This document shows, in pieces, positions 8,316 to 46,836 of a stretch of DNA of 55,040 nt. The notes below the pieces were generated by a model. The model was not told the DNA's origin. It ran no database searches and saw nothing but the letters and a program-made list of their open reading frames with translations. Source of the stretch: Candidatus Prevotella equi (GTDB taxonomy: Bacteria > Bacteroidota > Bacteroidia > Bacteroidales > Bacteroidaceae); assembly GCA_018065145.1 (NCBI GenBank), contig JAGHTW010000201.1, positions 1 to 55,040 of the forward strand, in the 5' to 3' direction. Every line of letters begins with the position of its first letter. The stretch's first letter is position 1. Made by a program: the position numbers and the translations under genes.

Positions 8316-8716
8316 GTCTAACAGAAACAGAACGTGAAATAATAGTAAAGCGTGAATACGAAAAGGCAATAACATTCATGGAACAAGCGGAAGGTAATGC
8401 TACTATGGGATATTGGGAAGTTGTTGCTAATAGAATGTATTATGCCGTTTTTCATGCGGTGTCTGCACTACTAATCAAAGACGGACATAAGGTGAATACG
8501 CACAGAGGAACTGTAATGGCGTATGGTCAGCACTATGTAAAGACTGGTATTGTTACCCATGACGAAGGTTCTCTTTATTCCCAGTTGCAATCCATGCGAG
8601 AGGATGCCGATTACAATTGTGCCTTCAAATCAGAGCCAGAGAAGATGAAAACACTTCTTCCGCAGGCAAAAACTTTGATTTCTAAGATAGGAAACTTATT
8701 GGACATCAGTGATTAA
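8312..8716 (+). CDS. hepT-like: HEPN-domain protein (UPF0332-like putative RNase toxin)
   Basis: 134 residues, all helical in appearance. The HEPN catalytic motif R-x4-6-H is visible as RMYYAVFH (about residues 44-51), and the downstream HRGT and REDADY elements are those of the UPF0332 branch. HEPN toxins cleave RNA; the YY within the motif region could be the AMPylation target of the partner. Translation is coupled to the MNT gene by a 4-nt overlap. The pair lies next to the left end of a prophage but does not look like a phage gene. Confidence 0.87.
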   Translation: MSLTETEREIIVKREYEKAITFMEQAEGNATMGYWEVVANRMYYAVFHAVSALLIKDGHKVNTHRGTVMAYGQHYVKTGIVTHDEGSLYSQLQSMREDADYNCAFKSEPEKMKTLLPQAKTLISKIGNLLDISD

Positions 8717-10288: not shown

Positions 10289-10516
10289 ATGAAAGATGCA
10301 ATGAAAGAGCTCTTCGGAGCAGAAATCGTCTGGTTCAAGAACTTGACCAGGTGGGAGAAGGTGAAGGCTGTTGTCAGTGTATTGCTGATGAACGTGTTCT
10401 TTGTGATGGTATGCTGTGACAATGCCCCATTGTGGTGGTACGGCATCAGTCTGTTGGTTCTTATTGTATCAGCAGTGTTGGCAAGTAGCTGTCCTTGGGA
10501 CAAATTAGAGGAATAA
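10289..10516 (+). CDS. Small two-helix membrane protein
   Basis: 75 residues, starting 2 nt after the previous stop. Two hydrophobic helices, about residues 25-44 and 49-66, with a short WKNL amphipathic N-terminus. It precedes the transposase gene by 20 nt. Its role in an early phage operon is unknown; superinfection or membrane-linked functions are possible but unsupported. Confidence 0.6.
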   Translation: MKDAMKELFGAEIVWFKNLTRWEKVKAVVSVLLMNVFFVMVCCDNAPLWWYGISLLVLIVSAVLASSCPWDKLEE

Positions 10517-10536
10517 TCATTTTAGCGAAACAGGAA

Positions 10537-12603
10537 ATGGAGTATTTCAACAAGATATTGTGCGTTACCTTTGATGAGTTAGCTGGTGGTGACAGTCCTG
10601 TCATTACTGGTCCTACTCTGATGAAGAATGTACAAAGAGGCAATATCCAGTGTGCTCGTCGCGGTGGTGGCGAATGCACAATCGCGCTCTATGTGTATGC
10701 TTCTCTTCCTGTAAAGTACAGAATGAAGTTTGAAGAGAAGTACGGCAAGCCAGCGGACGTGTTGAAGCAACAGGAGCTGAAAGACTGGGTGCGTGAGGAT
10801 GGCAAGGCACGAGAGTTCTTTGAGGTGTTTGAATATGATTTGAATGGTGTTCAAACGCGTCTCAGCCAGAAGCTCATTGATGAATACACAAGCAATGCAA
10901 CAGTGCTTGGCTTGCTATGGCAGAAGATGAACGAACTGACCGCTACGACTCACGCCCTTGGTGGTGGCAGACGCAGCGACCTCTGGGACATCATCTTTGC
11001 CCAGAGCGAGAAGCTGAGAGAGGTGACAAGCCACACCCTTCCAAAGAATCTTTCTCGCTTGAAGGAGAAGATGAGCCAGTTCAAGAAAGAGGGCTATGGT
11101 ACTCTGATCAGCGGCAAGATTGGCAACAAGAACACGTTGAAGATTACGGAAGAGGCATCAAGGAGGCTGATAGCGCTGAAGCGCAGCAGGGTTCCTGTGC
11201 TTACAGACTCGCAGATATTCGAGACCTTCAACGCAGAGGCAGAGGGCAAGGGCTGGAAGCCATTGAAGAGCATCAGGAGCTTGAAGACATGGCTTGACAG
11301 CGCAGCCATCGAACCATTGTGGCATGATGCCGTATATGGCGAAATGAGCGCCCACCAGAAGTTTGACCGCAGACACAAGACACAGTTGCCAACTATGCGC
11401 GATGCTCTCTGGTATGGTGATGGCACAAAGCTGAACTTATACTACAGAGACGATGACGGCAAGGTTAGGACCACAAGCGTGTATGAAGTCATTGACGCAG
11501 CCACAGAAACATTCCTTGGTTTCCATATCAGCGACAATGAGGACTACGAAGCACAATACATGTCATACCGCATGGCTATTCAGGTGAGTGGACACAAGCC
11601 ATACGAGATAGTACATGACAACCAGGGCGGCCACAAGAAGCTGCAGAACCAGCAGTTCTTTGACAAGCTCTGTCATATCCACAGAACGACCGCACCTTAC
11701 AACGGTGCATCGAAGACCATTGAAAGCGTGTTTGGAAGATTCCAGCAACAGGTACTTCACAAGGACTGGCGCTTCACAGGTCAGAACATCACGGCAAAGA
11801 AGGACAACAGCCGTGCGAACCTCGAATTTATAGAGGCGAACAAAGATAAGCTTTACACTCTGGCGGAACTGAAAGCCGCCTACTTGAAGGCAAGAACAGA
11901 GTGGAACGAAATGGCTCACCCTGCAACTGGAGAGCAGCGCATAAAGATGTATGAGAACAGCACGAATCCTGAGACTCCAGTTGTGACCGCAAGCGACATG
12001 ATAGATATGTTCTGGGTGACTTGCGACAGGATGAGCACCTTCACGAGCAGTGGCATAGAAATCACGGTGAAGGGACAAAAGAGGACTTACGAGGTGATGA
12101 GCGCTCCTGGCACTCCAGATATAGAATGGCGCAGGAAGCACACCTATCAGAAGTTTGTGGTGAAATACGATCCTTACGACTTTAGCAGCATCCGCCTCTA
12201 CTGGAAGGACAAAGCCGGTGAACTTCGCTTTGAGCGTGTTGCAGAGCCTTACCTTCTTATCCATCGTGCAATCCAGGAGCAGACGGAAGGCGAAGCAGCC
12301 TTCATCAGAGCTCAACAGACAGCCACAGAGCAGAGCCGCATAGAGCGTCAGGTGGTAGCGAAGGAAATAGAATATGCAGAAGGCGTTGCCCCTGAGCAGA
12401 ACGGTCTTGTTACTCCAGACTTGAAGGGAGTGAGCGCAGACGTGCAGAGGCAGATAGACAGGCGCACAAGGAAGTACAGTGCAGCACCTGAGGAACTGAG
12501 CCTTGGCAAATGGACTAAACGAGTCAGCTCAATAGACTTCTCTGAAATTCTGGAGCAGAAGAAGATTGAAATGGATGCCAAGAAGGTGGCAGGTAAGCTA
12601 TAG
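10537..12603 (+). CDS. MuA-type DDE transposase
   Basis: 688 residues from the ATG at 10537 (a longer frame begins with TTG at 10495 but overlaps the upstream gene). It catalyses prophage integration and replicative transposition, binding the phage ends. The RNase H-like catalytic core has D295 (WYGDGTK), D361 (VHDNQGG) and E396 (SKTIESVFG), a DD35E arrangement. N-terminal residues 1-280 hold the end/enhancer-binding domains; residues 540-600 include a beta-barrel-like domain typical of rve transposases (YDPYDFSSIRLY). MuB-like ATPase follows 40 nt later. Confidence 0.95.
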   Translation: MEYFNKILCVTFDELAGGDSPVITGPTLMKNVQRGNIQCARRGGGECTIALYVYASLPVKYRMKFEEKYGKPADVLKQQELKDWVREDGKAREFFEVFEYDLNGVQTRLSQKLIDEYTSNATVLGLLWQKMNELTATTHALGGGRRSDLWDIIFAQSEKLREVTSHTLPKNLSRLKEKMSQFKKEGYGTLISGKIGNKNTLKITEEASRRLIALKRSRVPVLTDSQIFETFNAEAEGKGWKPLKSIRSLKTWLDSAAIEPLWHDAVYGEMSAHQKFDRRHKTQLPTMRDALWYGDGTKLNLYYRDDDGKVRTTSVYEVIDAATETFLGFHISDNEDYEAQYMSYRMAIQVSGHKPYEIVHDNQGGHKKLQNQQFFDKLCHIHRTTAPYNGASKTIESVFGRFQQQVLHKDWRFTGQNITAKKDNSRANLEFIEANKDKLYTLAELKAAYLKARTEWNEMAHPATGEQRIKMYENSTNPETPVVTASDMIDMFWVTCDRMSTFTSSGIEITVKGQKRTYEVMSAPGTPDIEWRRKHTYQKFVVKYDPYDFSSIRLYWKDKAGELRFERVAEPYLLIHRAIQEQTEGEAAFIRAQQTATEQSRIERQVVAKEIEYAEGVAPEQNGLVTPDLKGVSADVQRQIDRRTRKYSAAPEELSLGKWTKRVSSIDFSEILEQKKIEMDAKKVAGKL

Positions 12604-12643: not shown

Positions 12644-13531
12644 ATGGAATTGACATCAAGAGAAAAAGAGCAGATCCGCAAGCAGCTGAAAGCGTATGTG
12701 GATAAGTACCCAAGCCAGAACAAGGCTGTGGGCAGCTTGAAGAACACCAGTGCCGGCACAGTGAGCAACATCCTCAACGGCAAGTGGGACAACATCAGTG
12801 AAGAAATGTGGCGCAAGATTGCCGACCAGGTTAAGACCGTCAGCGGAACAGACGGAAACGGTGGCGATGGCTGGCAGATTGTAGAGACAATGGCGTATCA
12901 GGAAATCAGCTATGCCCTTGATGACGCTCAGCAGTGGAAAAACGTGACATGGGTCATTGGTGAAGCCGGATGTGGCAAGACCACCACGGCGAAGATCTAT
13001 GCAGAGAGCCACAAGGAAGTCTTCTACATGCAATGCTCGGAAGACCTGTACAAAGGTGAGTTTGTGCGAGAGATCGCGCGCTTGGTAGGCATCAGAGGCG
13101 AGGGCTTCACCGTGCGAGAGCTCTGGAAAGAGATCCTTGCGAACCTGATTCTGATGGATGCCCCTCTTCTGATATTCGATGAGGCAGACAAACTGACTGA
13201 AAGCGTGTTCCACTACTTCATCAGTCTTTACAACAAGCTCGAAGACAAGTGCGGTGTGGTGTTCATGAGTACGGACTACATCAAGAAGCGCATCAAGAAC
13301 GGCTTGCGCTGGGAGAAACCAGGATATAAGGAGTTCTACAGCCGTATAGGTCGCAAATACTTTGAACTGGAAGAAACCACTCCACATGATGTATATGCCA
13401 TCTGTACCGCGAACGGTCTTTCAGAGCGCAAGGACATCGATGAGGTGATGAAGGATGCCGAAGCATGTGACTTCGACCTCAGAAGAGTAAAGAAGAGCAT
13501 CCACAGAGTTAAACGAGAAAACAGCAAGTAA
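12644..13531 (+). CDS. MuB-type transposition ATPase (AAA+)
   Basis: 295 residues. An N-terminal HTH (about residues 26-62, NKAVGSLKNTSAGTVSNILNG) precedes an AAA+ domain with Walker A GEAGCGKTT (106-114) and Walker B LLIFDEAD (175-182), sensor MSTDY near residue 206. In Mu, B binds target DNA and delivers it to the A transposome, and confers target immunity. The gene directly follows the transposase on the same strand, as in Mu-like phages. Confidence 0.93.
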   Translation: MELTSREKEQIRKQLKAYVDKYPSQNKAVGSLKNTSAGTVSNILNGKWDNISEEMWRKIADQVKTVSGTDGNGGDGWQIVETMAYQEISYALDDAQQWKNVTWVIGEAGCGKTTTAKIYAESHKEVFYMQCSEDLYKGEFVREIARLVGIRGEGFTVRELWKEILANLILMDAPLLIFDEADKLTESVFHYFISLYNKLEDKCGVVFMSTDYIKKRIKNGLRWEKPGYKEFYSRIGRKYFELEETTPHDVYAICTANGLSERKDIDEVMKDAEACDFDLRRVKKSIHRVKRENSK

Positions 13532-13535
13532 AATA

Positions 13536-14177
13536 ATGGGCAGAGCATTAACAGTAAACGAGGTTCTGAAAAGAAAGCGTCACACGTTCCCTTTTGAAGG
13601 GGCGTGGGCGCAAGCCTTCGGACAGCCGGAACGTACTGGAGTATGGTTCATCTGGGGCAACTCAGGCAACGGCAAGAGCAGTTTCGTGATGCAGTTGTGC
13701 AAAGAGCTGTGCAAGTATGACCGCGTTGTGTATGACAGTCTGGAGGAAGGTGACAGCATGACGATGCAGCAGAGCATGATGAGGCACGGCATGAGCGAGG
13801 TAGACCGTCGTTTCAATCTGTTGAATGCAGAGCCTATGGAAGACCTCAGGGAGCGTCTGAGCAAGCGCAAGAGCTGGAACATTGCCGTCATCGATTCCTT
13901 CCAATATACGCAGATGAGCTACAGGGACTACATCAGGCTGAAAGAGCAGAACAAGGACAAGCTGCTTATCTTCATCAGCCATGCCAAGGGCAGAGCGCCC
14001 AGAGGCAGCGCAGCGGAAAGCGTGATGTATGATGCCACTCTGAAAATATGGGTGGAAGGCTTCAAGGCATTCAGCAAAGGTCGCTTCATCGGTACCAGTG
14101 GTGAATATACCATCTGGGATGAAGGTGCAGCGCGGTACTGGGGAAATCTGAACCAAACTATGGAGGAAATCAGATGA
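13536..14177 (+). CDS. Second P-loop ATPase of the early region (RecA-like)
   Basis: 213 residues. Walker A is GNSGNGKSS (41-49), Walker B is IAVIDSFQ (116-123), and a following LLIFISHAKGR motif resembles the sensor of RecA/KaiC-like ATPases. Starts 4 nt after the MuB-like gene and overlaps the next start (ATGA). Such a second ATPase is seen in transposable phages of Bacteroidetes; its role in transposition or replication restart is not established. DNA-dependent ATPase activity is an inference. Confidence 0.75.
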   Translation: MGRALTVNEVLKRKRHTFPFEGAWAQAFGQPERTGVWFIWGNSGNGKSSFVMQLCKELCKYDRVVYDSLEEGDSMTMQQSMMRHGMSEVDRRFNLLNAEPMEDLRERLSKRKSWNIAVIDSFQYTQMSYRDYIRLKEQNKDKLLIFISHAKGRAPRGSAAESVMYDATLKIWVEGFKAFSKGRFIGTSGEYTIWDEGAARYWGNLNQTMEEIR

Positions 14178-14524
14178 TAGTACAAGATCCAAAAGGAAAC
14201 AAGTATCGTCTTCCGCTAATAGCACAATATGACTCCATCCCATACGAACCAATGCTATGTTGTTCGCATTGCTACCACTTCCGCAGTGGCTATGGCAATT
14301 GGATGGAAGAAATGTCAACAGACAAGGTCGCTGGCTATGTCGTTAACCCAGAAGGAGAATACGAGATAGTGCTTGAATGTAAATACTGCGGTCAGAAGTA
14401 TAGATTCCACATGTTTAAGGAATACCCAGGTGGAATATATGATGCAGAAGGGTGGAAAGATGAAATTGCATTGCATCTTCTTGTGAGGAAACATGATTAT
14501 CTGAAAATAGTCACGGAGGAATAA
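14174..14524 (+). CDS. Small zinc-ribbon-like early protein
   Basis: 116 residues with two Cys pairs that could bind zinc: CCSHC (about residues 29-33) and CKYC (about 70-73), followed by a basic/aromatic C-terminus. No named family. Its start overlaps the ATPase stop by 4 nt, so it is co-translated within the early operon. Function unknown. Confidence 0.65.
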   Translation: MIVQDPKGNKYRLPLIAQYDSIPYEPMLCCSHCYHFRSGYGNWMEEMSTDKVAGYVVNPEGEYEIVLECKYCGQKYRFHMFKEYPGGIYDAEGWKDEIALHLLVRKHDYLKIVTEE

Positions 14525-14527
14525 ACG

Positions 14528-14755
14528 ATGAGTAAGACAAAACAGATATTGGAGCTATGCAGCCCCACATTGAAAGCAAAAAAGGAGCATCTGAAAGGCC
14601 TCACCCAGACCTGCAACTATTGCAGCGGAAACGGATGGTTCTGGGGCAGGGATGAAGAAACCTTTGAAGGTATTAAGGTACCATGTCCTATGTGCGGAGG
14701 TTCCGGAAGGATGTACCCAGAAATTACGATCGAGTGGAAACCAAGTAAAGAGTAA
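14528..14755 (+). CDS. Small DnaJ-type zinc-finger protein
   Basis: 75 residues. Two CxxCxGxG repeats, CNYCSGNG (about residues 23-30) and CPMCGGSG (about 47-54), form the pair that binds one zinc in DnaJ Cys-rich domains. There is no J domain, so it is not a DnaJ itself. Possibly a protein- or nucleic-acid-binding adaptor of the early region. Starts 3 nt after the previous stop. Confidence 0.7.
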   Translation: MSKTKQILELCSPTLKAKKEHLKGLTQTCNYCSGNGWFWGRDEETFEGIKVPCPMCGGSGRMYPEITIEWKPSKE

Positions 14756-35478: not shown

Positions 35479-38400
35479 ATGAGTACACAGAAAAGAAGCG
35501 TGCTAAAAAACTGGTTTCGCAAAGGTTTGATTCCTACACAGGTTCAGTTTGCTGATGTCTTTGACAGTTTCTTGCATAAGAGTGAAGACCTGATTCCCCT
35601 GAGTCAAGTGGATGGTCTTGTTGCAGAACTAAACAACAAGAAGTATGAGCTTCAGGAATATCTTAACGAGAAATTAAGAGAAGCCGTCGTCGAACTTGAC
35701 AACAGTGTCAATGACAACAGCAATGCCACGGTGTCATCGATAGACTTTGGTTTCAAAGAAGGCTATGGTCTATATATGGACTTGACAATGCTCAGTGGTG
35801 AAACAAAAAGAGTATCTTTGGATATTCCTTTAGCCACTTTAGAACATGATGGTCTGATGAGTTCTAATGACAAAGCGACTCTTGAAGATGCTGTAGAAAA
35901 CATCGAGAACCTTGATCATCGTAAGTTTGCGGAGTTTGACGGTCTCACAAAGACATCCGTCACAATAGAGATGCAGAGCGCTACAGCCCCATTTGAAGCC
36001 ATTCTGTACAGTCCTGCAGATGGTTGCTTCGTTGCAAGAAAGGGCGGTAAGTATTATGCAAGTTTTTATGGTTATCTCGAATATAATGATCATAGCTTAA
36101 AGGCTCGCAAAGACAAACTGTTCCTTCATAAAACGACACATAAGCCTTGGGCATGGAATAGTGAAGAAGGCACTCTTACCACCTTCAACAGTGAAGTTCC
36201 TGATGGTGCCATTGTTGAAACTATGCTCAGCGAAGAACTAAAGCATAAAGTGAACAAGACAGATGTGGTGATAATAGACTATTGGACAACGGAGACCCCA
36301 GGTATCATGAAAGACATGGTACGCAAGGAGGGGATCTATATGTACAATTATGAGACAAAGAAACTATATGTCTCATATTTTGATCAGGATTACTATTTCG
36401 GCAATGTTGATTTGTCTGCTGATGCCATCTATGTACGCAAGGAAAAGAACATTCCTTACATCTGGAAGTCAGGTGACATGGAACCTATTGCCCCAGAGGA
36501 CATCCCTGCAAGCATCTTCAACGCAACGAACGAGATTCCTGTCAGAGGCTACTATGTTCTGTGTGATCCAAACAACCAGGAACTGAGTGCCGTTCATGCA
36601 GCATGGAATGCAGGTAAAGCCGTCAGCGGTCTGATCATATCCTTTGAGAGTGGTACCAGCATCTGGAAGACCTTCCAGTATATCGGCAAGACTGTGACAG
36701 AATCAAACTGGCTTAATGAAGCCAACTGGAAGGACTTCGGTAGCCTTGCAGCTGGCAGTGAAAGCTATGTCGATATAAACAACCTTCTTGGCAACACAAC
36801 TGTTTACACACTCAGTGCAGCTCTGGAAGCCTTGAAGAACTATATGGAGAAGACCAACACTGACTACTGCAAGCAGGGAATGATCATTGCTTACAAGAGC
36901 AGTGAGAAATACGAAGTGGAGTGCAAACAGTACAAAGGTACAACAAAAGCAGACTTCTGGGAAAGCGGTCTTTGGCAGGACTTCGGCGGTGGCAACGTTG
37001 AAGCAGAAAACACCCCAGCTGAGGGCAGCACCACACCATTCAGCACAGGTGGCGCTTATGAGCATATCCCTACGGGAATCAATGTCAACACAGAGACAGA
37101 GGGAGTGGTAAAAGTGTCCTTGCGCAATGCTGCAGGTGAACAGATAGGTGATGAAGAGCAGTTTCCTGTTGGAAGTGGTACCGGTGGCGGTGTTGCTTCT
37201 GGTGCTGTTGTAAGCATCGCCTTGGAAGAATCCCCTGTTTATGTTGGTCTTGGTGGTACCGCAATAATCAAGGCAGCCATCCGAAGCATGAAGACAGACG
37301 GAAGCGGAACCTTGAACGGTATTTCACGCATTGACATCATTGACCGCGACAGCAGCCTGAGTGTTTACACCGACACGAAAGACCATGAGAGTTCTGATGA
37401 TCTGGAAGACTTCAAGTTTCGTATTGACCTCAGCAGCCTCATCAGCCAGGCAGGAACGCGCAAGTTCCGTATGACCGCAACGGATGAGGAAGGCAATACC
37501 GGTTCAAAGAATTTCCAGATTACAGCAGTGGATGTTACCTGTACCTGCATCCAGACACTCAACTACAGTGCGGCAAGCATCATCCCACAAGGTGGTTCCA
37601 AGACCATAGACCTTTACAAATTCGGCAACTACACGAGTGACAAAGGCATCCTTGTGACAACAGACATATTTATCGGAGGTGAATGGGTGAACGTAGGCAA
37701 GGCGACCGTCTATGATGCCTACAGCCACGCTGTAAGCTTCGATGCTGTAGCACTTGGTCTTTCTCATGGCAGCTATCTTGTCAGGATCCAGGGAGAAGAT
37801 GTTTCTTCTGGGGTGAAGGGAAACACCATCTATACAAGTGTCATGGTGATAGATCCTGAAAGCATCATCCCTGTTGTCTCTATCAGATACAATGATACAA
37901 CCGACGGTGAAGTGAAACGTTACAGCAGTGTAAAGATAGAGATTGCAGCCTACCAGAACGATAAGAACTATGTTGAGGGCGTGAGCCTGATGGAAGGCGA
38001 GAAGGCAATCAGCAACATCACCTGTGAGAAGGGAACAACCTATACCGTCACACGTCAGATACAATCCGGAGAAGACGGCAGCATCCTTGCTTTTTATGCA
38101 ATGGTTGCAGGTAGCGTGTCAGGCACTGTGCGCATGACCGTAAACGGAAGCGCTATCAAAGCCACATTGAAGGAGAATGCCATCTATGCCTTTGACTTCG
38201 GAAGCCGTAGCAATTCAGAGTCAGACCACAGCATAACGGATGGTGACTTCAAGATGGAGCTGACTGGAGTAAACTGGAGTTCCAACGGTTTCAAGAACTA
38301 TCTTGGCGAGGTGGCACTTCGCATCGCGGAGAATGTCAAGGGACAGCTCAATCACTACCCATTCAAGGCAGACAACCTTGAAAGTGCCGGTGCAGCCATA

Positions 38401-41400
38401 CAGTTTGCCTTCGCCTCGAACAACACCATCAATGATGACACAATGCTTCTGAAATGCTATGATGAAGGACTTGGTGCAGGTTTCTATGTGACAGGCAAGG
38501 TCATCGGCATCTATGCTAACGGAGGCATCAGCGGACGTGAGGAACGCGCATACGCTCAGGGTGAGAAGGTGACAGTGTGTGTTGTCGTAGAACCAGGATC
38601 TAAAACCGTGAGCAGGGACGGCAATACATATTCAACCATCAAGCTTTTCCTGAATGGTGAGGAAGTCGCTTGCATAGGCTATCAGCCAGGAGGCGGCAGA
38701 CTGTATCAGGAAAAGCCGATTGAGTATGACGGTACAGAGGGCGACCTGTATCTGTACTATATTCTTGCATGGGAGAGCTATGCAGAATGGGCAAAGTGTT
38801 TTGAGAACCATGTCGTGAAGCTTACAGATACAGCGGTGATGGCTCAAGAGTATGAAGAAAATGACGTGCTGACAGCCCAGATGCCAGACAGAACCAAGCT
38901 TGCGGATCTCGGAATGCCATATATCATAGAGTGCCCTTGCGAGGGCAGTGATGTAGGTGCTCTTGACAGTACGACAAGCACAAGCACCAAGAACTACATC
39001 ACCCTGTATTACTACAACCCTGCGCGCCCATGGACAAACTTCATGGCAACAGAGGTTCAGACAAGAAACCAGGGAACGACATCAGCCAAGCGCCCTGTCA
39101 AGAACAAGCGCTACTATCTGGCAAAGAGCAAGGGCAAGAACAAGAACACCATCATCACGCTTCTCAATCCTGACGAAACGACAGAGGAAGGGCGCAGGGC
39201 AATAGAGCTTGCCAAGATCAACAAAGTGCAGGTAGGCGACAACACAATCCCTGTGGATCTCATTACGGTGAAGGTCGATTATTCTGATTCCGGCAATGCA
39301 AATGACTGTGGCGTATGCGACATGATGAACAACACATTCCGCGCCCTCGGAGGTCAGTACCTTACCCCTGCGCAGAGAGCCTTTGATGGTACCTACGACA
39401 AGGGGGATGTGCATCTGGAAGGCTTGCAGATGAATCACTCGACGGCAAACCACAATGTCGCAACCTTCCGTTGTGACAACGAGGTTCCTTCAAGCGGAAA
39501 CATCATATTCCACGCAAAGGGCAACTGGAAGGAAGACAAGAGTGAACAGCTTGCACTCGGTTTCAAAGACACTCCTGGATATAACAAGGGATGCCTCAAC
39601 TATGGTGACGGCAGTTTCGTTGAATACTTCGGCAGAAGGGATGAGAGTCTTGTGGACATCAAGACACGATTCCGCAACGACTCCACCGTGAACACAGGCA
39701 AGCTTTACCTTCTCAGCCTCTACTGTGGCAGCTCATACTGTTTCATGAAGTATGATGCCACAAGAAGCGTATGGGAAGAGCAGGGTGGCAAGATGTATCA
39801 GGACAACAGCGGCAAGTGGCATGTTGAAGGTACGGTCTTAAATCCTGTCACTGGCTTTGAGCTCTTGAACTATCAGGGCTTTGACTGGTTCCAGGGCGTT
39901 TCTTCCCTTGATGACATGATGAATCCGCTGATCACAGTGGATGCAGAGGGAAACGAGACGGTGAGCACATCATCCTGGGTGAGAAAACTTGTCGATGCAG
40001 GTTCTATCACGGATCTCAGCGTTGTTCCTGCCTGGACCTTCTATTTTGAGTGTCTTGTGGATGACGATGACCTTGCCCTTGCGTATGCGTTAGGCAAGAA
40101 GTGCCCTTATGAACTATACCGCTGGCTCAGGTTCTGCGACGAATGTGATTATTCAAAGGTTCCTGAAGCCGTGTGGAAGGCAAAGTGGTATGCAGAACTC
40201 TACAAGTACGCATCACCTCAGAGCGTAATGGCTTACGATGTATTCACGGACTATCTGGCAGCCGTTGACCAGAGGGCAAAGAACACACAGCCTATGTGGT
40301 TCCTCGATGACGGCGGCAAGGTAGAGAATGGCATCTACAACAGCGATGAGAATGTCAGGATGTATCTGAACAAGGTCTATGACTGCGATACGACGAACAG
40401 CAAGGACAATGACGGTGGCTGTACTGTTGACGCGGAAATGGATCCAAACCGTGATACGGATGAGAACTACACAAACCCATACGCTGGATGGGGCTCTGTG
40501 CTGTTCCAGAACATCTACCATCAGCAGAATGTGAAATGTCCTACTCAGGAGAGTGGAGAGCTGTCACTGATGAATGTTGCTTCTGCCATGCGTTCCGTAC
40601 AGACCTCTGTTGATGGCGTGACCCTACAGCCATTCAGCCCAGAGGGAGCAAAATACTTCTTCATCACCAAGCGCCTCAAAAAGTGGCCGAAGGTGGTGAG
40701 CAGCTATGACGGTGAACGAAAGTACATCAATTTCACTGCAACCGCTGATGCCATATACTTCTATGCTCTGCAGGGACTCGGTCTTACAGCCCTTCCTTCT
40801 TTCATACAGCGCAGATGGCGCATCAGAGACGGTTTCTATGGTACAGGTTCCTTCACTGACACATATATCAGTTTCCGTCTTGCTGCGAAGTCAAGCGGCT
40901 ACTTGCGCATCAAGGCAGCCAAGACCGGATATTTCGGCATCGGTAATGACAACAGAGGCGTGATCCGTGAGAGCTGCTATATGGAGGCAGGTGAGACGCA
41001 TGACTTCAACATGGCAGTGTATGACAGCAACGCCCTCATATACATCTACCAATGCGACAGAATCAGCGCAATGGATATGAGCCAGGTAACGATGGCCAAC
41101 AGTGGCGGAACGCTCAATCTCGGCTCAATGACATTGCTGGAGGAACTGACGCTTGGCGGTACATGGCACGCAGAGGCAGCCAATGAGACAAGCTACCCAT
41201 ACATTACGGGATTGGCTTGTGGTGATATGCCATTCCTCAGGATGATCAATGCGGAGAACACCAAAGTTGAGACCATTTCAGCAGCTTCATGCCCTCGACT
41301 TGCAGAAGTGTATGCAAAAGGATCCGCGCTGACAACGATTGCCCTTGCAGAGACATCGCCAATAGAGACGCTTGAACTGCCATCGACTATGACATCACTT

Positions 41401-43476
41401 TCATTCACCAATCTGGCAAACCTGAAATATCCTGGTGGATTGAGCTTTGAAGGTGTTGGAAGTGTCAGAAGCATCCTTGTTTCCGACTGTGGCAAGATAG
41501 ACTGTGCACAGCTGCTTCTTGATATTATAGCCGGAGGTGCATCAATCAGATACATCCGTCTTGCAAATATCAATGTGACAGGTCAGTCAGGAGTATTGCA
41601 GACACTTATTGACGGAGGTGTGACAGGACTCAGTGCAAGCGGTGCCACATACGGCGAGAGTGGAAAGTGTACTGGACTGACAGGACGCTGGATAATGACG
41701 GACTTCGTAAGCAATGAGACCCTTTCATCCATGCGCTCATATTTCCCAGAGCTGAGCATCCACAACAGCCAGTACAGCTGCATCAGCTTTGCAGATACTG
41801 TTGGTGATCCCCAGAACATCACGAACCTGGACAACAGTACAGGCTATGAGTTTGGCAACAACTACACCCCTTCATCCCACATCAGCCAGATATGGGAAAA
41901 CATGAAGCCAGTCATTGGTCTCTATAGCCCAGGAGAGGAAAAGATGCGCTGCGTCCGCCTCGATGAGCGAGACTATACGAAGCTTGCAGATGGCCGTGCC
42001 CTGAATAATACATACGACAAGGGAGAGTATGACGCATTCATGTATAACCCTCACTACTGGTACAAGGGCATCAATGACTTCAAGAATGATAAGAAGTATC
42101 TTTTCCTGTCTTCCCTTGATGAAGAGCCTATTTCGTCAGCGAGTGTAGTACGTCGCTTCAAACTGTCAGAAATACTGCTTAAGGCTGGTTACTCTGTAGT
42201 TACAGACTCTACAGATACAGGAATCTTCACAGAGGATGGTGAGCTGAAATTTGATAGCAGCCAGGCATTTATTAGGACTAACAGCAGCTACAACACCTAC
42301 ATGATGGATGTGGAAGGAATGAAGCAAGTCCGTTGGCCAGGTGTGGCAAGCAGCAGAATTGGCGCGATTTTTGTTGATGAAGATGGCAAGATGCTTGATG
42401 TGTACACTCTTACAGGCATGGCAGCAGATTCCGACTTCACTGATGGCGACTATACCTTCACTAATGTTCCTACAGGAGCGAAATACATAGTCTTTGCAGC
42501 CAAAGTTGGTTTCACCAATGCAGAAGCCATCGCCGTTGACAGCAGTGAGCTTGAAGCCATAGAACCTGACTGGGTGGAGCACAAGCCTGACCTTTGCGGC
42601 ATCTACGCAGCAGCTATGGTGAACGGAACCCTTCGCAGTGTTTCGGGCGTACAGGCAAAGGTTGGTGACAGTAACAGCAACACATACACAGGATGGTCAT
42701 ACGACAAGGAAGGTCATGTTCTTCCAAAGGATCCTGCAGATGTGGCAGACCTGCCACTTCATTACACGGTGAAGGACTTCCAGAACCTGGCATGGCTCAG
42801 AGGCAAAGGCTATCAGATGATAGACTACGAAATGAGTAAGGACATTGCCAACCTGTTTTTTGCCATCGTCGGCAACAGAGACGGTCAGGCTGTATGCGGT
42901 CAAGGCAGAAGTGTAGGCAGTTCCAGCAGTAACGGCTGGCGCAATAACTACAACACTGGTGCATTTGATTCAATCGGCAAGGCAAACAGTGCGTGGACAT
43001 CAGGAAGCGGCAACAAGGTTCTTGGCATAGAGAACTTCATGGCATGTAACTCTGAGCCAATGGACAATGTGGCAGTGAACATTGCCGACTATGCTACCTA
43101 CAAGAAGAACAAGATGGTTCCGACTGGTGCAGATCCGACAGATGCCGTCTGGCACATCTTTGACCCTCTGACAAAGACAGAGCGCACAGTGCAAGGTTTG
43201 AATGTTCCATCAGGTTACTGCATCGGCAGAGTGAAGTTTGGCAGGTTTGCGGACGTTGTTCCATCAAAGACCACGAACGACAACAGCCGCTGGAACCAGA
43301 ACTATGGTGATGGATATTGGTACACTCATTCTACTGGCCGTGCCGTGTACCGCTCTTTCAACTATGCGAATGCGTGTGGCGGTCTCGTGTTCTCGAACGC
43401 GTTTTACGCCGCTTCGTACTCGAGCACGAACTACGGCGCGCGTCTGGCCTTCAGAGGAACGATAGAGTTGATATAG
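35479..43476 (+). CDS. Giant tail fibre/adhesin, DGR target protein
   Basis: 2665 residues. The N-terminus (SVLKNWFRKGLIPTQVQFAD, DSFLHKSEDLIPLSQVDGL) is the tail-attachment region of Bacteroidetes phage fibres. Residues ~700-950 are beta-rich Ig/Big-like repeats, ~960-1130 a jelly-roll/lectin-like part (IYAFDFGSRSN onward), and ~1870-2040 a leucine-rich-like stretch (LEELTLGG, LPSTMTSLSFTNLANL). The last ~130 residues have the C-type-lectin-like layout of DGR targets and end in the variable repeat: residues ~2620-2659, with variable sites FNY, C, F, FY, Y, S. It would display the diversified receptor-binding surface. Confidence 0.92.
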   Translation: MSTQKRSVLKNWFRKGLIPTQVQFADVFDSFLHKSEDLIPLSQVDGLVAELNNKKYELQEYLNEKLREAVVELDNSVNDNSNATVSSIDFGFKEGYGLYMDLTMLSGETKRVSLDIPLATLEHDGLMSSNDKATLEDAVENIENLDHRKFAEFDGLTKTSVTIEMQSATAPFEAILYSPADGCFVARKGGKYYASFYGYLEYNDHSLKARKDKLFLHKTTHKPWAWNSEEGTLTTFNSEVPDGAIVETMLSEELKHKVNKTDVVIIDYWTTETPGIMKDMVRKEGIYMYNYETKKLYVSYFDQDYYFGNVDLSADAIYVRKEKNIPYIWKSGDMEPIAPEDIPASIFNATNEIPVRGYYVLCDPNNQELSAVHAAWNAGKAVSGLIISFESGTSIWKTFQYIGKTVTESNWLNEANWKDFGSLAAGSESYVDINNLLGNTTVYTLSAALEALKNYMEKTNTDYCKQGMIIAYKSSEKYEVECKQYKGTTKADFWESGLWQDFGGGNVEAENTPAEGSTTPFSTGGAYEHIPTGINVNTETEGVVKVSLRNAAGEQIGDEEQFPVGSGTGGGVASGAVVSIALEESPVYVGLGGTAIIKAAIRSMKTDGSGTLNGISRIDIIDRDSSLSVYTDTKDHESSDDLEDFKFRIDLSSLISQAGTRKFRMTATDEEGNTGSKNFQITAVDVTCTCIQTLNYSAASIIPQGGSKTIDLYKFGNYTSDKGILVTTDIFIGGEWVNVGKATVYDAYSHAVSFDAVALGLSHGSYLVRIQGEDVSSGVKGNTIYTSVMVIDPESIIPVVSIRYNDTTDGEVKRYSSVKIEIAAYQNDKNYVEGVSLMEGEKAISNITCEKGTTYTVTRQIQSGEDGSILAFYAMVAGSVSGTVRMTVNGSAIKATLKENAIYAFDFGSRSNSESDHSITDGDFKMELTGVNWSSNGFKNYLGEVALRIAENVKGQLNHYPFKADNLESAGAAIQFAFASNNTINDDTMLLKCYDEGLGAGFYVTGKVIGIYANGGISGREERAYAQGEKVTVCVVVEPGSKTVSRDGNTYSTIKLFLNGEEVACIGYQPGGGRLYQEKPIEYDGTEGDLYLYYILAWESYAEWAKCFENHVVKLTDTAVMAQEYEENDVLTAQMPDRTKLADLGMPYIIECPCEGSDVGALDSTTSTSTKNYITLYYYNPARPWTNFMATEVQTRNQGTTSAKRPVKNKRYYLAKSKGKNKNTIITLLNPDETTEEGRRAIELAKINKVQVGDNTIPVDLITVKVDYSDSGNANDCGVCDMMNNTFRALGGQYLTPAQRAFDGTYDKGDVHLEGLQMNHSTANHNVATFRCDNEVPSSGNIIFHAKGNWKEDKSEQLALGFKDTPGYNKGCLNYGDGSFVEYFGRRDESLVDIKTRFRNDSTVNTGKLYLLSLYCGSSYCFMKYDATRSVWEEQGGKMYQDNSGKWHVEGTVLNPVTGFELLNYQGFDWFQGVSSLDDMMNPLITVDAEGNETVSTSSWVRKLVDAGSITDLSVVPAWTFYFECLVDDDDLALAYALGKKCPYELYRWLRFCDECDYSKVPEAVWKAKWYAELYKYASPQSVMAYDVFTDYLAAVDQRAKNTQPMWFLDDGGKVENGIYNSDENVRMYLNKVYDCDTTNSKDNDGGCTVDAEMDPNRDTDENYTNPYAGWGSVLFQNIYHQQNVKCPTQESGELSLMNVASAMRSVQTSVDGVTLQPFSPEGAKYFFITKRLKKWPKVVSSYDGERKYINFTATADAIYFYALQGLGLTALPSFIQRRWRIRDGFYGTGSFTDTYISFRLAAKSSGYLRIKAAKTGYFGIGNDNRGVIRESCYMEAGETHDFNMAVYDSNALIYIYQCDRISAMDMSQVTMANSGGTLNLGSMTLLEELTLGGTWHAEAANETSYPYITGLACGDMPFLRMINAENTKVETISAASCPRLAEVYAKGSALTTIALAETSPIETLELPSTMTSLSFTNLANLKYPGGLSFEGVGSVRSILVSDCGKIDCAQLLLDIIAGGASIRYIRLANINVTGQSGVLQTLIDGGVTGLSASGATYGESGKCTGLTGRWIMTDFVSNETLSSMRSYFPELSIHNSQYSCISFADTVGDPQNITNLDNSTGYEFGNNYTPSSHISQIWENMKPVIGLYSPGEEKMRCVRLDERDYTKLADGRALNNTYDKGEYDAFMYNPHYWYKGINDFKNDKKYLFLSSLDEEPISSASVVRRFKLSEILLKAGYSVVTDSTDTGIFTEDGELKFDSSQAFIRTNSSYNTYMMDVEGMKQVRWPGVASSRIGAIFVDEDGKMLDVYTLTGMAADSDFTDGDYTFTNVPTGAKYIVFAAKVGFTNAEAIAVDSSELEAIEPDWVEHKPDLCGIYAAAMVNGTLRSVSGVQAKVGDSNSNTYTGWSYDKEGHVLPKDPADVADLPLHYTVKDFQNLAWLRGKGYQMIDYEMSKDIANLFFAIVGNRDGQAVCGQGRSVGSSSSNGWRNNYNTGAFDSIGKANSAWTSGSGNKVLGIENFMACNSEPMDNVAVNIADYATYKKNKMVPTGADPTDAVWHIFDPLTKTERTVQGLNVPSGYCIGRVKFGRFADVVPSKTTNDNSRWNQNYGDGYWYTHSTGRAVYRSFNYANACGGLVFSNAFYAASYSSTNYGARLAFRGTIELI
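43335..43456 (+). repeat. DGR variable repeat (VR)
   Basis: 122 bp aligned without gaps to the template repeat 271 bp downstream. Mismatches to TR adenines: 43357, 43358, 43363, 43375, 43376, 43391, 43402, 43403, 43405, 43417, 43424, 43448, 43449, 43452 (ten or so A to T, two A to G, three A to C). One mismatch is not at adenine: 43411 (TR T, VR G). All TR C and G positions are retained. The GC-rich run CTACGGCGCGCGTCTGG (43431-43447) is the probable IMH-like initiation region. Confidence 0.95.
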
Positions 43477-43496
43477 CGTAACGACGAGAAAGCGTC

Positions 43497-43524
43497 AGAT
43501 GGAGGCCCGTAGGGAGCTCCATCT
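43497..43524 (+). other. Hairpin 1 downstream of VR
   Basis: AGATGGAG (43497-43504) and CTCCATCT (43517-43524) form a perfect 8-bp stem; inside, CCC/GGG (43506-43508/43512-43514) can pair around GTA. It begins 20 nt after the adhesin stop and 40 nt after VR. DNA hairpins just past VR are needed for efficient target recognition in the Bordetella phage DGR. Confidence 0.7.
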
Positions 43525-43532
43525 CTCACTTT

Positions 43533-43546
43533 CCGGCGTTAGCCGG
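43533..43546 (+). other. Hairpin 2 downstream of VR
   Basis: CCGGC (43533-43537), loop GTTA, GCCGG (43542-43546): a 5-bp all-GC stem with a 4-nt loop, directly after hairpin 1 and before the TR promoter box. Confidence 0.6.
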
Positions 43547-43568
43547 TCGATTTTTGCGAAAATTTTTG

Positions 43569-43576
43569 TAACTTTG
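43569..43576 (+). promoter_or_regulatory. -7 box of the DGR template RNA promoter
   Basis: TAACTTTG (43569-43576) matches TAnnTTTG; transcription would start near 43583, 23 nt before the TR. A TTTG at the normal -33 distance is not seen, so the promoter may be weak or activated. Confidence 0.55.
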
Positions 43577-43582
43577 CACCCT

Positions 43583-43859
43583 CAAAATAAGGTAGATAAT
43601 CTCAATGGCCGTGCCGTGTACCGCTCTAACAACAATGCGAATGCGAATGGCGGTCTCGTGTACTCGAACGCGAATAACGCCTCTTCGAACTCGAACACGA
43701 ACTACGGCGCGCGTCTGGAATTAAGAGCTACTGCCAAGCATGGCAGATAATCGCACCAATGCAGTGATGACGTGTCATCAGCGTATATGCGAGAGATTAG
43801 AGCCTCGGCAACAGCACGCAAGTGGAAAGCCGGAACATAACTAAGGGCCCTGAAGGCTT
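43583..43859 (+). ncRNA. Predicted DGR template RNA leader/TR/spacer
   Basis: From the predicted start at ~43583 through TR to the RT start codon. The 132-nt spacer after TR is non-coding and contains TGATGAC (43765-43771)/GTCATCA (43774-43780), a 7-bp hairpin. In the Bordetella phage DGR the RNA spacer beyond TR is required for cDNA synthesis and for RT-Avd binding; the same role is inferred here. Confidence 0.6.
43606..43727 (+). repeat. DGR template repeat (TR)
   Basis: 122 bp matching VR. It holds eleven AAY (Asn) codons when read in the VR frame, the usual TR design because mutagenesis at both adenines of AAY can give about fifteen amino acids and no stop. About 26 adenines lie before the GC-rich initiation-like run and 5 after. 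An 83-codon frame across it (43499-43750) is a by-product of this design, not a gene. Confidence 0.95.
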
Positions 43860-45209
43860 ATGAACAACATTTTTCCTCTGAATGATCTTATCCCTGAGAT
43901 TATATCAGAGAACAACATGTACGACAGCTTTGACTATGTTATAGATCATCTGGAGTATAAGCAACAAAGGGAGAAATACAGACCACATCGACAGTCCATT
44001 GTAGAGAAGTTGACAATGGACATCGGTAGCGGTACATTTCGCATCCTTCCGGAAGATGTGAGGGACATACATGTAAAGGACGGACCGAAAGAACGCGATT
44101 GCCAGGCACCAAAGGTTTATAAGCGAATCGGTATTCATGCAATCATGGTAATAGTGGAGAAATACACCTATACCACGTTGATAAAGAATACCGCAGCATC
44201 TGTCAAGGGGAAGGGAATGCACTGGCTTCATCACATCATTGAAGAAGACCTGCAGAACGCTCCTGAGCTCATGGCGTTCTATTACCAGAATGACATAGAG
44301 CACTTCTACGACAATATAGACCAGGATAAAATGAAGGAGGTCATCAGGAACTACATTTCAGATCCTGTGCTTCTGCCTATGCTTGACTGCTTCATCACGC
44401 TTCTGCCAAAAGGTCTTTCCAAAGGGCTCAGGTCATCACAGTGCTTTGCCAACCTCTTCCTGTCACCTGTGGATCATGTCATGCTTGAACATGTGAACAA
44501 GTACACTCTTAAAACTGTTGAAGGCGAGGAAACAAGATACCTGTATGACAGATATTGCGATGATACGGTATTTTGGTCAGATAATAAAAAAGACCTGTGG
44601 AAGCTGAGGGACATCTATGTCTCAGAGATTGAGAAGCTGGGACTGCGTGTGAAGAAGTCAGAAGCTGTGCGACCAATAGAGGAAGGGCTTGACCACCTCG
44701 GCTATGTTCACTTTGCAGAATACTCACTGATCCGTAAGAGGACAAAGCAGAAAGCAGCAAGGCATCTGGCAAAGGTAAAGAGTCGAAAAAGACGGCAAGA
44801 GATCATTGGCTCATTCAAAGGGATGGCTTGTCACGCAGATTGTAAACATTTATATTTCATATTAACAAATAAACACATGAAGAAGTTCAGCGAAATGGGT
44901 GTTGCGTACACCCCAGAGGACGGCAAGAAACGCTTTCCTGGTAAGGCAGTCAGATTGAGTGCCATTGTGAATAAGGAAATTGAGGTGCATGACTATGAGA
45001 AGGATGTTACCACCAAGAACGGTGATGGCAGATACATAGTAAGCTTTAGGGATGTGAAATCAGGTGAGTGGGCAAAGTTCTTCACTGCATCCGAAGAAAT
45101 GAAGCAGATCCTCGACAAAGTGAGTGACATTGAAGACGGTTTCCCATTCTCTACAGTCATAGAGAGTGAGGCTTTTGATGTAAACAAAATCAAATACCGC
45201 TTCACTTAA
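43860..45209 (+). CDS. DGR reverse transcriptase with C-terminal extension
   Basis: 449 residues. RT motifs in order: NDIEHFYDNID with the first catalytic Asp at D145; the DGR-type motif GLRSSQ (189-194; GxxxSQ) in place of the retroviral SPxxxQ; and the catalytic YCDD (232-235, at 44553-44564), where most DGR RTs have Y[MVI]DD. This low-fidelity RT copies the TR RNA and misincorporates opposite adenines; the cDNA replaces VR. Beyond the RT thumb (after about residue 340) ~110 residues form an additional domain with HDYEKDV, GRYIVSFRD and FFTASEEM. No separate Avd gene is seen nearby. Confidence 0.95.
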   Translation: MNNIFPLNDLIPEIISENNMYDSFDYVIDHLEYKQQREKYRPHRQSIVEKLTMDIGSGTFRILPEDVRDIHVKDGPKERDCQAPKVYKRIGIHAIMVIVEKYTYTTLIKNTAASVKGKGMHWLHHIIEEDLQNAPELMAFYYQNDIEHFYDNIDQDKMKEVIRNYISDPVLLPMLDCFITLLPKGLSKGLRSSQCFANLFLSPVDHVMLEHVNKYTLKTVEGEETRYLYDRYCDDTVFWSDNKKDLWKLRDIYVSEIEKLGLRVKKSEAVRPIEEGLDHLGYVHFAEYSLIRKRTKQKAARHLAKVKSRKRRQEIIGSFKGMACHADCKHLYFILTNKHMKKFSEMGVAYTPEDGKKRFPGKAVRLSAIVNKEIEVHDYEKDVTTKNGDGRYIVSFRDVKSGEWAKFFTASEEMKQILDKVSDIEDGFPFSTVIESEAFDVNKIKYRFT

Positions 45210-45245: not shown

Positions 45246-45722
45246 ATGGACAAAATTTATGGTACATCAATCCGCCAGGACGGATTGCAGAAAGTAGGCC
45301 GAAACCGTTGGGATTTGTTCTATGGCTTCGGCAAGGACGATGACAATGAGATGGGCTATAACTGGCGCACCACATTTGACCATCAGCCGACGATCGACGA
45401 AGTGAAGGGTGCAATCACTGCACAGATCAGTTCAAACGCACAGAAGGCTATTATTGAAGGCTACAGGTGGGATGGTATTGCTGTCTGGCTTTCGGATGAG
45501 AACCAAAGGAACTACACGCTTGCCTATAATCTGGCAAAAGATGGGAACCTTGGCAAGTTGCCGACAGTGAAGCTCGGTTCTGATGAAGAGCCAGTCCTTC
45601 ACACTTTCAAGGACACGAAGGAACTCACGGCATTTGTTCAGGGTATGCAGCAGCACATACAGATGTGCCTTGAATCTGCATGGCATGAGAAAGAACAAAT
45701 TGACTGGAGTATTTATGAGTAA
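45246..45722 (+). CDS. Phage protein after the DGR, unknown (possible fibre accessory)
   Basis: 158 residues. N-terminal YGTSIRQDGLQKVGRNRWDLFYGFG then YNWRTTFDHQPTIDEVKGAI recur in Bacteroidetes phages next to fibre genes as far as I can recall; the middle resembles tail-fibre assembly/DUF4376-like proteins (repeated DGIAVWLSDENQRNY). No Avd-like four-helix pattern. It could be a fibre assembly factor or a DGR accessory; neither is shown by sequence alone. Confidence 0.6.
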   Translation: MDKIYGTSIRQDGLQKVGRNRWDLFYGFGKDDDNEMGYNWRTTFDHQPTIDEVKGAITAQISSNAQKAIIEGYRWDGIAVWLSDENQRNYTLAYNLAKDGNLGKLPTVKLGSDEEPVLHTFKDTKELTAFVQGMQQHIQMCLESAWHEKEQIDWSIYE

Positions 45723-45729
45723 GGCTAAA

Positions 45730-45860
45730 GGGGACAAAGAGCCCCTGGCCGGTTAACAATCGTCTCACTTATTATTAACAACGCGCCATGCCGGCACACG
45801 ACCAGGGGCAATATACCTCTGCTCGTGCCGGTATGGCGTTTTTGTATAAATAAGTGAGAC
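45730..45860. ncRNA. Complex intergenic fold with terminator-like hairpin and alternative pairing
   Basis: An outer 12-bp perfect stem GTCTCACTTATT (45763-45774)/AATAAGTGAGAC (45849-45860) encloses a 14-bp stem CGCCATGCCGGCAC (45785-45798)/GTGCCGGTATGGCG (45826-45839) followed by TTTT. The inner loop holds CCAGGGGC (45803-45810), which can pair perfectly with upstream GCCCCTGG (45742-45749); that segment can instead fold with AGGGG (45730-45734). As DNA it may simply be a strong terminator; as RNA it has mutually exclusive folds. Confidence 0.65.
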
Positions 45861-46197: not shown

Positions 46198-46836
46198 ATG
46201 AACAAATACTACAAAATGCTGGATAAGATTCTATCCAATGGCAAAATGCAACAGAACAAGAAGGGAAACATCAAGTACCTCTTGAATGAACAGTTATCAA
46301 TGACACCTGCAGATCTTCTCGACATCTTTGAGGGACACAGCATCGCAAGGAAGAAATTGAAGAGTGAACTCAAACTATTCATGCAGGGTGAGCGCAATGT
46401 GGAGAAATACCGCGAGGCTGGCATCTACTGGTGGGACTATTGCGGTTCAATCCTGGTCAATAGTTATCCAACCTATTTCGAGAAGTTACCGCCTCTTGTT
46501 GAGAAAATAAACCGTGAGAAGCGCAACAGCAAGAACTATGTGCTGTTTCTCGGCTCTACTGATGCAGAGAGCAACCAGACACCATGCCTGAGTCTTGTGC
46601 AGTTCCAGATTGATGAAGGGGAACTGGTTGTTTCTGCTTATCAGAGAAGTTCTGATGCTAACCTTGGTCTTCCTTCCGACATCTATCATCTGTACTTGAT
46701 GGCAAAGCAGATTGATCTTCCTTTGAAGTCTATTACATTGAATCTGGGAAATGTTCACATCTATGAGAGCAACATCGACAGGACTCATGAGCTTTTGAAT
46801 GGCTCAGAGAATGTCAAATTCGACTTGAATGTCTGA
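46198..46836 (+). CDS. Divergent thymidylate-synthase-family enzyme, putative pyrimidine (hydroxy)methyltransferase
   Basis: 212 residues, shorter than standard TS (~264). Order and spacing of TS landmarks are kept: KILSNGKMQQNKKGN (phosphate loop, the Arg of RTGT replaced by Lys), ELKLFMQGERNVEKYREAGIYWWD (in two parts, about residues 57-80), catalytic C130 in TPCLSLVQF, YQRSSD (R150, S151, D153), LGLPSDI, and HIYESN (H187, Y189). D161 stands where dUMP-specific TS has Asn177; Asp at this place is the hallmark of dCMP hydroxymethylases. Also GN in place of GD before the His. Last phage gene, with promoter-like TAACTTTG near 46168 and a strong terminator. Possible role: modified cytosine for phage DNA. 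Confidence 0.75.
   Translation: MNKYYKMLDKILSNGKMQQNKKGNIKYLLNEQLSMTPADLLDIFEGHSIARKKLKSELKLFMQGERNVEKYREAGIYWWDYCGSILVNSYPTYFEKLPPLVEKINREKRNSKNYVLFLGSTDAESNQTPCLSLVQFQIDEGELVVSAYQRSSDANLGLPSDIYHLYLMAKQIDLPLKSITLNLGNVHIYESNIDRTHELLNGSENVKFDLNV

Follow-up and report, generated by a model that had tools for sequence, protein, structure and literature searches.

A Hankyphage-type diversity-generating retroelement in a Mu-like prophage and a predicted accessory domain fused to its reverse transcriptase

The window analysed here (positions 1 to 55,040 of the forward strand of contig JAGHTW010000201.1, from the Candidatus Prevotella equi assembly GCA_018065145.1) contains a Mu-like prophage that carries a true diversity-generating retroelement (DGR) with signs of recent activity, as judged from its sequence. 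A target gene ending in a variable repeat (VR) is followed by a template repeat (TR) and a reverse transcriptase (RT), all on the forward strand, as are the prophage, its MuA-like and MuB-like genes, the DUF4376-like gene and the other parts of the DGR. Most, though not all, known DGRs include an accessory gene, avd. We propose, at a probability of about three in four, that this is a DGR of the Hankyphage type in which the RT copies TR RNA with adenine errors, the resulting cDNA replaces VR, and a domain fused to the RT, here called ACC, does the job of Avd. That last role is suggested by the association of ACC with DGR RTs and by its position.

VR (43335-43456) and TR (43606-43727, holding 31 adenines) align without gaps over 122 bp and lie 271 bases apart. 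Of their 15 mismatches, 14 coincide with an adenine in TR, and VR has an adenine at none of them (hypergeometric p = 4e-9); the sole exception is a T in TR that is a G in VR, at 43411. Eleven codons are changed, of which seven are Asn codons in TR that have become Phe, Tyr, Cys or Ser codons in VR. The VR finishes 20 bases before the end of the target open reading frame (ORF; 35479-43476), which encodes a likely tail fibre or adhesin of 2665 residues that matches phrog_14959 (unknown function) across residues 405-2664 and phrog_5302 ("tail protein") across residues 2375-2658. An earlier note on this DNA had described the repeat pair, its adenine bias, the changes at template Asn codons and the place of VR at the 3' end of the adhesin gene, and each of these was recovered. 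Its description of the fibre as unusually large did not hold up: the uncut target ORFs of relatives span 2246-2776 codons from stop to stop (6/6) and the Hankyphage target has 2245 residues, making the size ordinary for the group. Apart from TR and VR themselves, no additional copy of TR was found in the own genome, where the only other match covered 19 bases (E = 4.4). The fold of the VR domain was poorly modelled (AlphaFold2 on 18 sequences, pLDDT 37), a PDB profile search gave no match at E up to 10, and the C-type lectin fold that the earlier note had predicted was not confirmed. The Hankyphage target, whose C-terminal domain is homologous to that of the window target (33% identical), has a C-type lectin domain according to Benler 2018 (PMC6199706).

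Natural variation in VR is directly visible in a sibling of this prophage, IMG/VR contig IMGVR_UViG_3300001598_000104 (L006/L058), which is 98.7% identical to the window across 9125 bp (121 differences). The sibling TR is identical to that of the window (0/122), and the two VRs differ at 15 sites. Fourteen of these are TR adenines, and at the remaining one, 43411, the sibling has the TR base. VR holds 15 of the 121 differences between the two sequences (Fisher p = 5e-11). Because TR is identical and VR has changed almost entirely at TR adenines, VR has been rewritten in nature, and the invariance among related lysogens that the earlier note had named as evidence against its reading is not seen in this pair. 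The differing sites span 43357-43433, and the remaining 3' part of VR, 43434-43456, is likely the initiation of mutagenic homing (IMH) sequence. The three most 3' VR/TR mismatches (43448, 43449 and 43452) are identical in the window and the sibling; since they are common to both, they are more likely a fixed difference between the predicted IMH and its counterpart IMH* in TR than a product of mutagenesis. With these three given to IMH, 11 changes at adenine sites and one at a T site are left as candidate mutagenesis in the window VR. The reading of all 14 adenine mismatches as diversification thus stands for 11 and probably not for the other three. The locus in this way combines an adenine-biased TR/VR pair with a VR at the 3' end of the target whose predicted IMH differs from IMH*.

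The same pattern appears in other loci. Between L015 and L021, VR differs at 14/82 positions, all facing TR adenines, while TR differs at 0/82 and the flanks at 53/3506. Across 21 loci of the fused type, including the window, the sibling and the near-copies L010 and L012, a TR adenine lies opposite the VR base in 249 of the 256 mismatches between the repeats, a count in which the rule for extending the repeats was tolerant of adenine mismatches and from which L033-L042, of the non-fused type, were excluded; the VR/TR scan excluded L009, L011, L014, L018, L028 and L032, and no pair was obtained for L005, L026, L041 and L043. Some comparisons weigh on the other side. The near-copies L010/L012 differ at 1/119 VR positions, giving no signal and being uninformative, and in three more distant pairs a good part of the VR differences lies away from TR adenines: 8/21 in L019/L020 (13/21 at adenines; TR differs at 8/115), 11/24 in L008/L010 (13/24 at adenines; TR differs at 16/122) and 8/23 in L003/L017 (15/23 at adenines; TR differs at 8/110).

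An ordinary duplication that has simply drifted would hardly yield mismatches that spare VR adenines altogether and fall on TR adenines in 14 cases out of 15, and the same bias recurs in the sibling and in L015/L021; nothing was found in favour of this explanation, which is contradicted by all three comparisons and is scarcely credible. A decayed cassette, which diversified formerly and is now inactive, deserves more thought and still seems improbable. Decayed relatives are known: in L005 and L011 VR and TR have collapsed to one TR-like copy, and the RT of L118 has a broken frame. Against this, the RT, TR, IMH, inverted repeats and RT-3 RNA of the window look intact, and the close sibling, with TR unchanged, differs at 15 VR sites.

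Several relatives show other arrangements of the repeats. In L005 (BKO1-TP3, before 14875) and L011 (before 1806), VR and TR have seemingly collapsed to a single TR-like copy at the end of the target gene, with the spacer RNA downstream, an arrangement that is likely a natural deletion derivative. In L003 (BS-TP4) VR and TR are separated by an insert of some 0.9 kb (13968-14628), annotated as a RelE-like toxin and a transcriptional regulator, and the gap between VR and TR in L017 is similar in size.

The RT is an intact ORF of 449 amino acids (43860-45209) with the motifs GLRSSQ and YCDD, in agreement with the GxxxSQ and YCDD motifs noted earlier. In the phylogenetic tree, which held no retron rows, it fell among DGR RTs, that of BPP-1 included, with four group II introns set apart (100/99). 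Among PDB profile matches the best was 8ub7, a chain named DGR RT (4.5e-49), far ahead of group II (2.9e-22) and retron Ec86 (2.6e-8). The tree and the profile matches together bear out the assignment to the DGR clade, so the retron or group II intron grouping that the earlier note had named as refuting is not seen within this sampling. The RT is 42.7% identical to that of Hankyphage, and the closest named RTs in the phage collection are those of BS-TP4 (50.3%) and BKO1-TP3 (49.7%). The own genome holds further RTs: on contig C87 a second DGR with fused ACC (L002/L097, RT at about 10850-12201) has its own VR/TR pair and YCDN replacing YCDD, and may be inactive or a variant; on contig C79 a third RT (L095) has a bAvd-like ORF (29 bits, cut-off 40) 285 bases from the RT frame.

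The ACC domain, a predicted fused accessory domain, comprises the C-terminal 110 residues of the RT (residues 340-449; 44877-45206). It matched phrog_19665 (unknown function) and no Pfam family above cut-off. Separate ORFs of 111-119 amino acids also match phrog_19665 (E 1e-24 to 2e-38), and profile-profile comparison by hhalign joins the fused ACC with these separate ORFs (probability 97.8, E 1.2e-12). In L034, L035 and L036 the separate ACC ORF lies between VR and TR, which is the position of avd in BPP-1. The distribution of ACC was surveyed with a joint profile, A7, whose rows came from 7 of the 38 places eventually found, in genus and family draws that overlap and both include the own genome. 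ACC was found in 12/200 genus genomes and 19/301 family genomes, and in the phylum draw in the own genome only (1/296). Fifteen places came from the genus draw and a further 23 from the family draw (split matches in G144, G626 and G792 merged). All 38 lie at an RT matching the DGR-RT profile, with ACC fused in 31 and beside the RT in seven; the search for VR and TR covered some of these loci, and one of them, L118, has a broken RT frame. Five of the seven separate ACCs lie upstream of the RT (L034, L035, L036, L113 and L123) and two downstream, both in G075. The 19 fused RTs in the tree formed one clade (83/95), which is consistent with a single fusion of ACC to the RT, and the RTs of L034-L036 share a 27-row part of the tree with this clade (93/90).

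On this sequence evidence ACC probably replaces Avd. We lean, by a modest degree, towards the broader proposal that ACC is a new family of DGR accessory factors with a fold unrelated to Avd, which would have started out as a gene of its own, located between VR and TR, before a single fusion to the RT in the lineage of Hankyphage and this prophage, with the RNAs RT-3 and RT-17 as template-RNA spacers. A number of observations pull against an Avd-like role for fused ACC. Support for the fused clade is modest, and the RTs with separate ACC do not form one clade. L033 and L039, whose RTs group with three of the separate-ACC RTs, gave no ACC match in their 1.5-kb flanks, and none was found for L037, L038 or crAssphage LMMB. 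ACC is conserved about as well as the whole RT (better in L016, L008 and L004, less well in L007, L020 and L025), and 677 database relatives of the separate ACC have genomic contexts outside the survey. The isoelectric point of ACC is 5.9, compared with 9.6 for BPP-1 Avd (separate ACCs, 5.5 and 9.3), and the predicted fold of ACC is beta-rich. The Avd fold is helical. With its lower isoelectric point and beta-rich predicted fold, ACC would share any role with Avd by analogy, not homology. In the RT model, residues 361-449 form a block with pLDDT 80-91, and the values at 341-360 are 54 and 62. The ACC profile had no match among PDB sequences at E < 0.1, and a comparison of its fold with the PDB barely probed the domain, since at least a fifth of the VIA rows span residues 1-348 only. 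Between the window and the sibling the ACC protein is unchanged, with two silent changes.

Several further features of ACC loci were observed. Met340 (44877-44879), where ACC begins, does not vary among 31 aligned RTs, and an A-rich stretch often precedes it; in 9/18 loci, among them the window, its upstream A-richness places it within the top 7% of positions along the RT. This is only suggestive of ACC also being translated alone, and the many database proteins that start there are possibly fragments. Two places in G075 (L086/L088, contig C4) have a 138-aa ACC-like ORF downstream of the RT, and G626 (L117/L124) has a 569-aa RT with two tandem ACC domains. L040 has an HRDC ORF in place of ACC; HRDC has one match in the own genome, off the window's contig.

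The earlier note had called the DGR complete. VR, hairpins, promoter box, TR and RT are indeed in place, but the element is not complete in the BPP-1 sense, no Avd gene having been found beside it: neither PF22296 nor PF05635 matched on the window's contig at E 1e-3, with BPP-1 Avd as a positive control for PF22296. A separate Avd is essential in BPP-1 (PMC12875486, PMC10053308). The window could hold an ordinary DGR supplied with Avd in trans from elsewhere in the host genome, with ACC serving in some other capacity, for instance with nucleic acids or in tail assembly. The own genome does contain bAvd-like ORFs on contigs C79 (beside RT L095) and C144, both under cut-off, as well as PF05635 matches on contigs C144, C7 and C237. 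We consider this unlikely nonetheless, as a transposing phage could hardly depend on the Avd of a single host and all ACC places found are at an RT. In addition, a set of 20 genomes, ACC being present in 12, gave 57 places matching PF05635 and 11 matching PF22296, and none of these fell on a contig bearing an ACC-RT save in G075, where two PF05635 and one PF22296 places lie more than 250 kb away; this comparison was made by hand, some contigs were short, family-draw genomes were left out, and PF05635 is only Avd-like. The bAvd profile (PF22296) matched neither the window ACC nor four separate ACCs at E up to 1, a result with which remote homology is still compatible.

Alternatively, the accessory factor might be the small DUF4376-like gene that follows the RT (45246-45722), or another small neighbouring ORF. 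Such a gene lies 3' of the RT in the window, BS-TP4, BKO1-TP3 and Hankyphage, the window gene being the counterpart of the Hankyphage one. Hankyphage papers mark an "Avd" close to the RT, and Benler 2018 (PMC6199706) picked a small RT-proximal ORF by isoelectric point and weight. Pfam assigns the window gene to DUF4376, without any bAvd match; in Hankyphage p00, a 64-aa ORF located between the two repeats has no Pfam match, and the two candidate p00 accessory ORFs that were scanned gave no bAvd match. This explanation is also improbable, slightly more so than Avd in trans. Fused ACC as the substitute for Avd remains the reading we prefer. It does not explain every DGR without avd, as a crAss-like DGR has been described as lacking avd (PMC7290462) and the crAss-like RT has no ACC match.

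The region between VR and TR and that between TR and RT hold further elements of the DGR. Two inverted repeats, 43497-43524 and 43533-43546, lie 3' of VR, and together (43497-43546) they are likely the hairpin or cruciform region of retrohoming, a terminator, or both. The RNA fold of 43457-43560 has a z score of -4.84, and the minimum-energy fold holds the first hairpin and not the second; comparable repeat pairs were seen by eye in several relatives. A TAnnTTTG box (TAACTTTG, 43569-43576) follows, which we take to match the -7 element of Bacteroidetes-type promoters and which is the likely -7 element of a putative promoter for the TR RNA. The hairpins and a -7-like box between VR and TR, also part of the earlier description, are thus present. 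A TAnnTTTG box occurs within 110 nt upstream of TR in 14/18 loci, compared with 2-8% of 110-nt tiles in the same loci. Between TR and the RT, and extending into the start of the RT, lies a match to the RT-3 RNA (RF03068; 43749-43895; 76 bits, gathering threshold 40.5, E 5.9e-18). Of 18 fused-type loci that were scanned, 15 have this RNA (the window, 13/16 of one set, and L003), a scan that left out the fused-type loci L005, L006, L009-L012, L014 and L018-L021 and the family-draw loci. It starts 9-44 nt 3' of TR, as measured by hand, in the 13 of these 15 whose TR was located. Among 16 further loci, four (L036, L037, L038 and L096) have RT-17 (RF03020) upstream of the RT, in the first three of them 3' of TR, and BPP-1 has RF03022 (Phage DGR RNA) in the same place, between TR and RT. 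Since the spacer RNA of BPP-1 folds and recruits RT-Avd (PMC12875486), RT-3 is by analogy likely the structured spacer of the template RNA in this DGR. The exceptions count against these assignments: no box was found within 110 nt upstream of TR in L003, L016, L017 and L025, and no RT-3 in L002, L031 and L032. None of RT-3, RT-17 and RF03022 reached gathering in L033-L035, L039, L040, L042, L068 and L095.

Together, these elements suggest how the DGR may work. The TAnnTTTG box would drive a single RNA comprising TR and the RT-3 spacer; the RT-ACC protein would be recruited by, or bind, this spacer, with priming inside it; and during cDNA synthesis random bases would be placed opposite the adenines of TR. 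Retrohoming, the replacement of VR by this cDNA, would then be guided by the IMH and by the inverted repeats downstream of VR, which in BPP-1 are required for efficient homing (PMC3240598). Lysogens and virions would come to vary in the tip of the tail fibre, with altered receptor binding as the possible benefit. The sequences themselves show the arrangement of the parts and the natural variation of VR; we infer the enzymatic steps by analogy with BPP-1 and with active Hankyphage DGRs (PMC12135933).

The prophage, of about 38.3 kb, extends from 8718 to 46984, as delimited by its divergence points from the sibling; its ends (TAAGGGGGGCAAAACG... and ...GGTTTTGCCGTGCTTA) are accurate to one or two bases, and alike short repeats lie close to both. 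It encodes a MuA-like transposase (10495-12603; phrog_310, E 7e-94; 56-57% identical to Hankyphage MuA) and a MuB-like ATPase (12644-13531; phrog_296, E 5e-64). On contig C201 of the genome that holds the window, the sibling's flanks have an uninterrupted homologue (left flank, 95.7% across 94 bp; right flank, 81% across 648 columns), so that the sibling copy is integrated at another site from the window copy, which adjoins a HEPN gene. Two copies at different sites fit a transposable phage. The target duplication is CAATT in the sibling (5 bp) and TAAGT/TAAGA, with one mismatch, in the window, or else 4 bp (CAAT/TAAG); that of Hankyphage is 5 bp (Benler 2018, PMC6199706). MuA and MuB, two integration sites and a short target duplication are thus found here as in Hankyphage-like transposable phages, and with the DGR-type RT and the sibling's rewritten VR they uphold the placing of a DGR inside a Mu-like prophage. 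RT relatives in genome contigs come from a Prevotella sp., a Bacteroidaceae and a Bacteroidales metagenome-assembled genome, and the host is only inferred, from sequence, to be Prevotella-like. Immediately left of the prophage, whose left end touches the HEPN stop codon, is a nucleotidyltransferase/HEPN gene pair (7980-8716). Beyond the DUF4376-like gene is a long inverted repeat (45762-45860) with 36-nt arms that are 81% complementary, and beyond the DGR a short thymidylate-synthase-like gene (46198-46836), in a position similar to that of the annotated Hankyphage thymidylate synthase.

The DGR lineage of gut phages that includes Hankyphage is seemingly without Avd beside the RT, and ACC, traced in 38 places, is a candidate replacement; if this is true, the ACC family would account for part of the DGRs in which Avd is not recognisable. 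The job of the accessory factor, and whether one polypeptide suffices, becomes directly testable; two Rfam RNA families, RT-3 and RT-17, likely act as spacers in the template RNAs of DGRs; and doubt falls on a published "Avd" assignment made by isoelectric point and weight. A Pfam-based survey gives Avd, HRDC and MSL as DGR accessories (PMC10053308), and a domain without a Pfam model would escape such a survey. The literature searched, which included PMC8143477, PMC12386605, PMC6642488, PMC8144416 and PMC7657543 but not every key paper, showed no ACC-like domain and did not connect RT-3 or RT-17 with DGRs; the novelty of ACC and of the RT-3 link is provisional, and an earlier description is possible.

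Among described kinds of phage, the one nearest to this prophage by sequence is Hankyphage (Bacteroides phage p00, BK010646). It is likewise Mu-like, with the order target-VR-TR-RT-DUF4376-like ORF and a thymidylate synthase further on, and it shares a large target (2245 aa), the RT-3 RNA (146.6 bits) and an ACC at the C terminus of the RT, a domain not described in the available parts of the Hankyphage literature (PMC6199706, PMC12135933). It differs in its host and in sequence (MuA 56-57%, RT 42.7% and C-terminal target domain 33% identical to those of the window), which agrees with the earlier view of a related but separate version. The Hankyphage genus is bounded by more than 70% intergenomic similarity (PMC12135933), and the protein identities of MuA (56-57%) and RT (43%) speak against placing the window prophage in it. 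The Bacteroides phages BS-TP4 and BKO1-TP3 share ACC, a target of about 2640 aa and the closest named RTs (50.3% and 49.7%); they differ in having genomes of 64-65 kb and, respectively, a toxin-antitoxin-like insert between VR and TR and a VR/TR pair collapsed to one copy. The DGRs with separate ACC (L034, L035, L036, L113 and L123) have the same ACC family, and the RTs of L034-L036 lie near the fused clade, whereas their ACC is a gene of its own, located between VR and TR in L034-L036 (VR and TR were not sought in L113 and L123); the spacer RNA differs as well, being RT-17 in L036, with none at gathering in L034 and L035. Bordetella phage BPP-1 shares the VR/TR repeats, a structured RNA between TR and RT, the RT fold across model residues 3-340, and an IMH and hairpin 3' of VR (PMC3240598), but it has a separate bAvd (PF22296), a 328-aa RT without ACC, and RF03022 rather than RF03068 as its spacer RNA.

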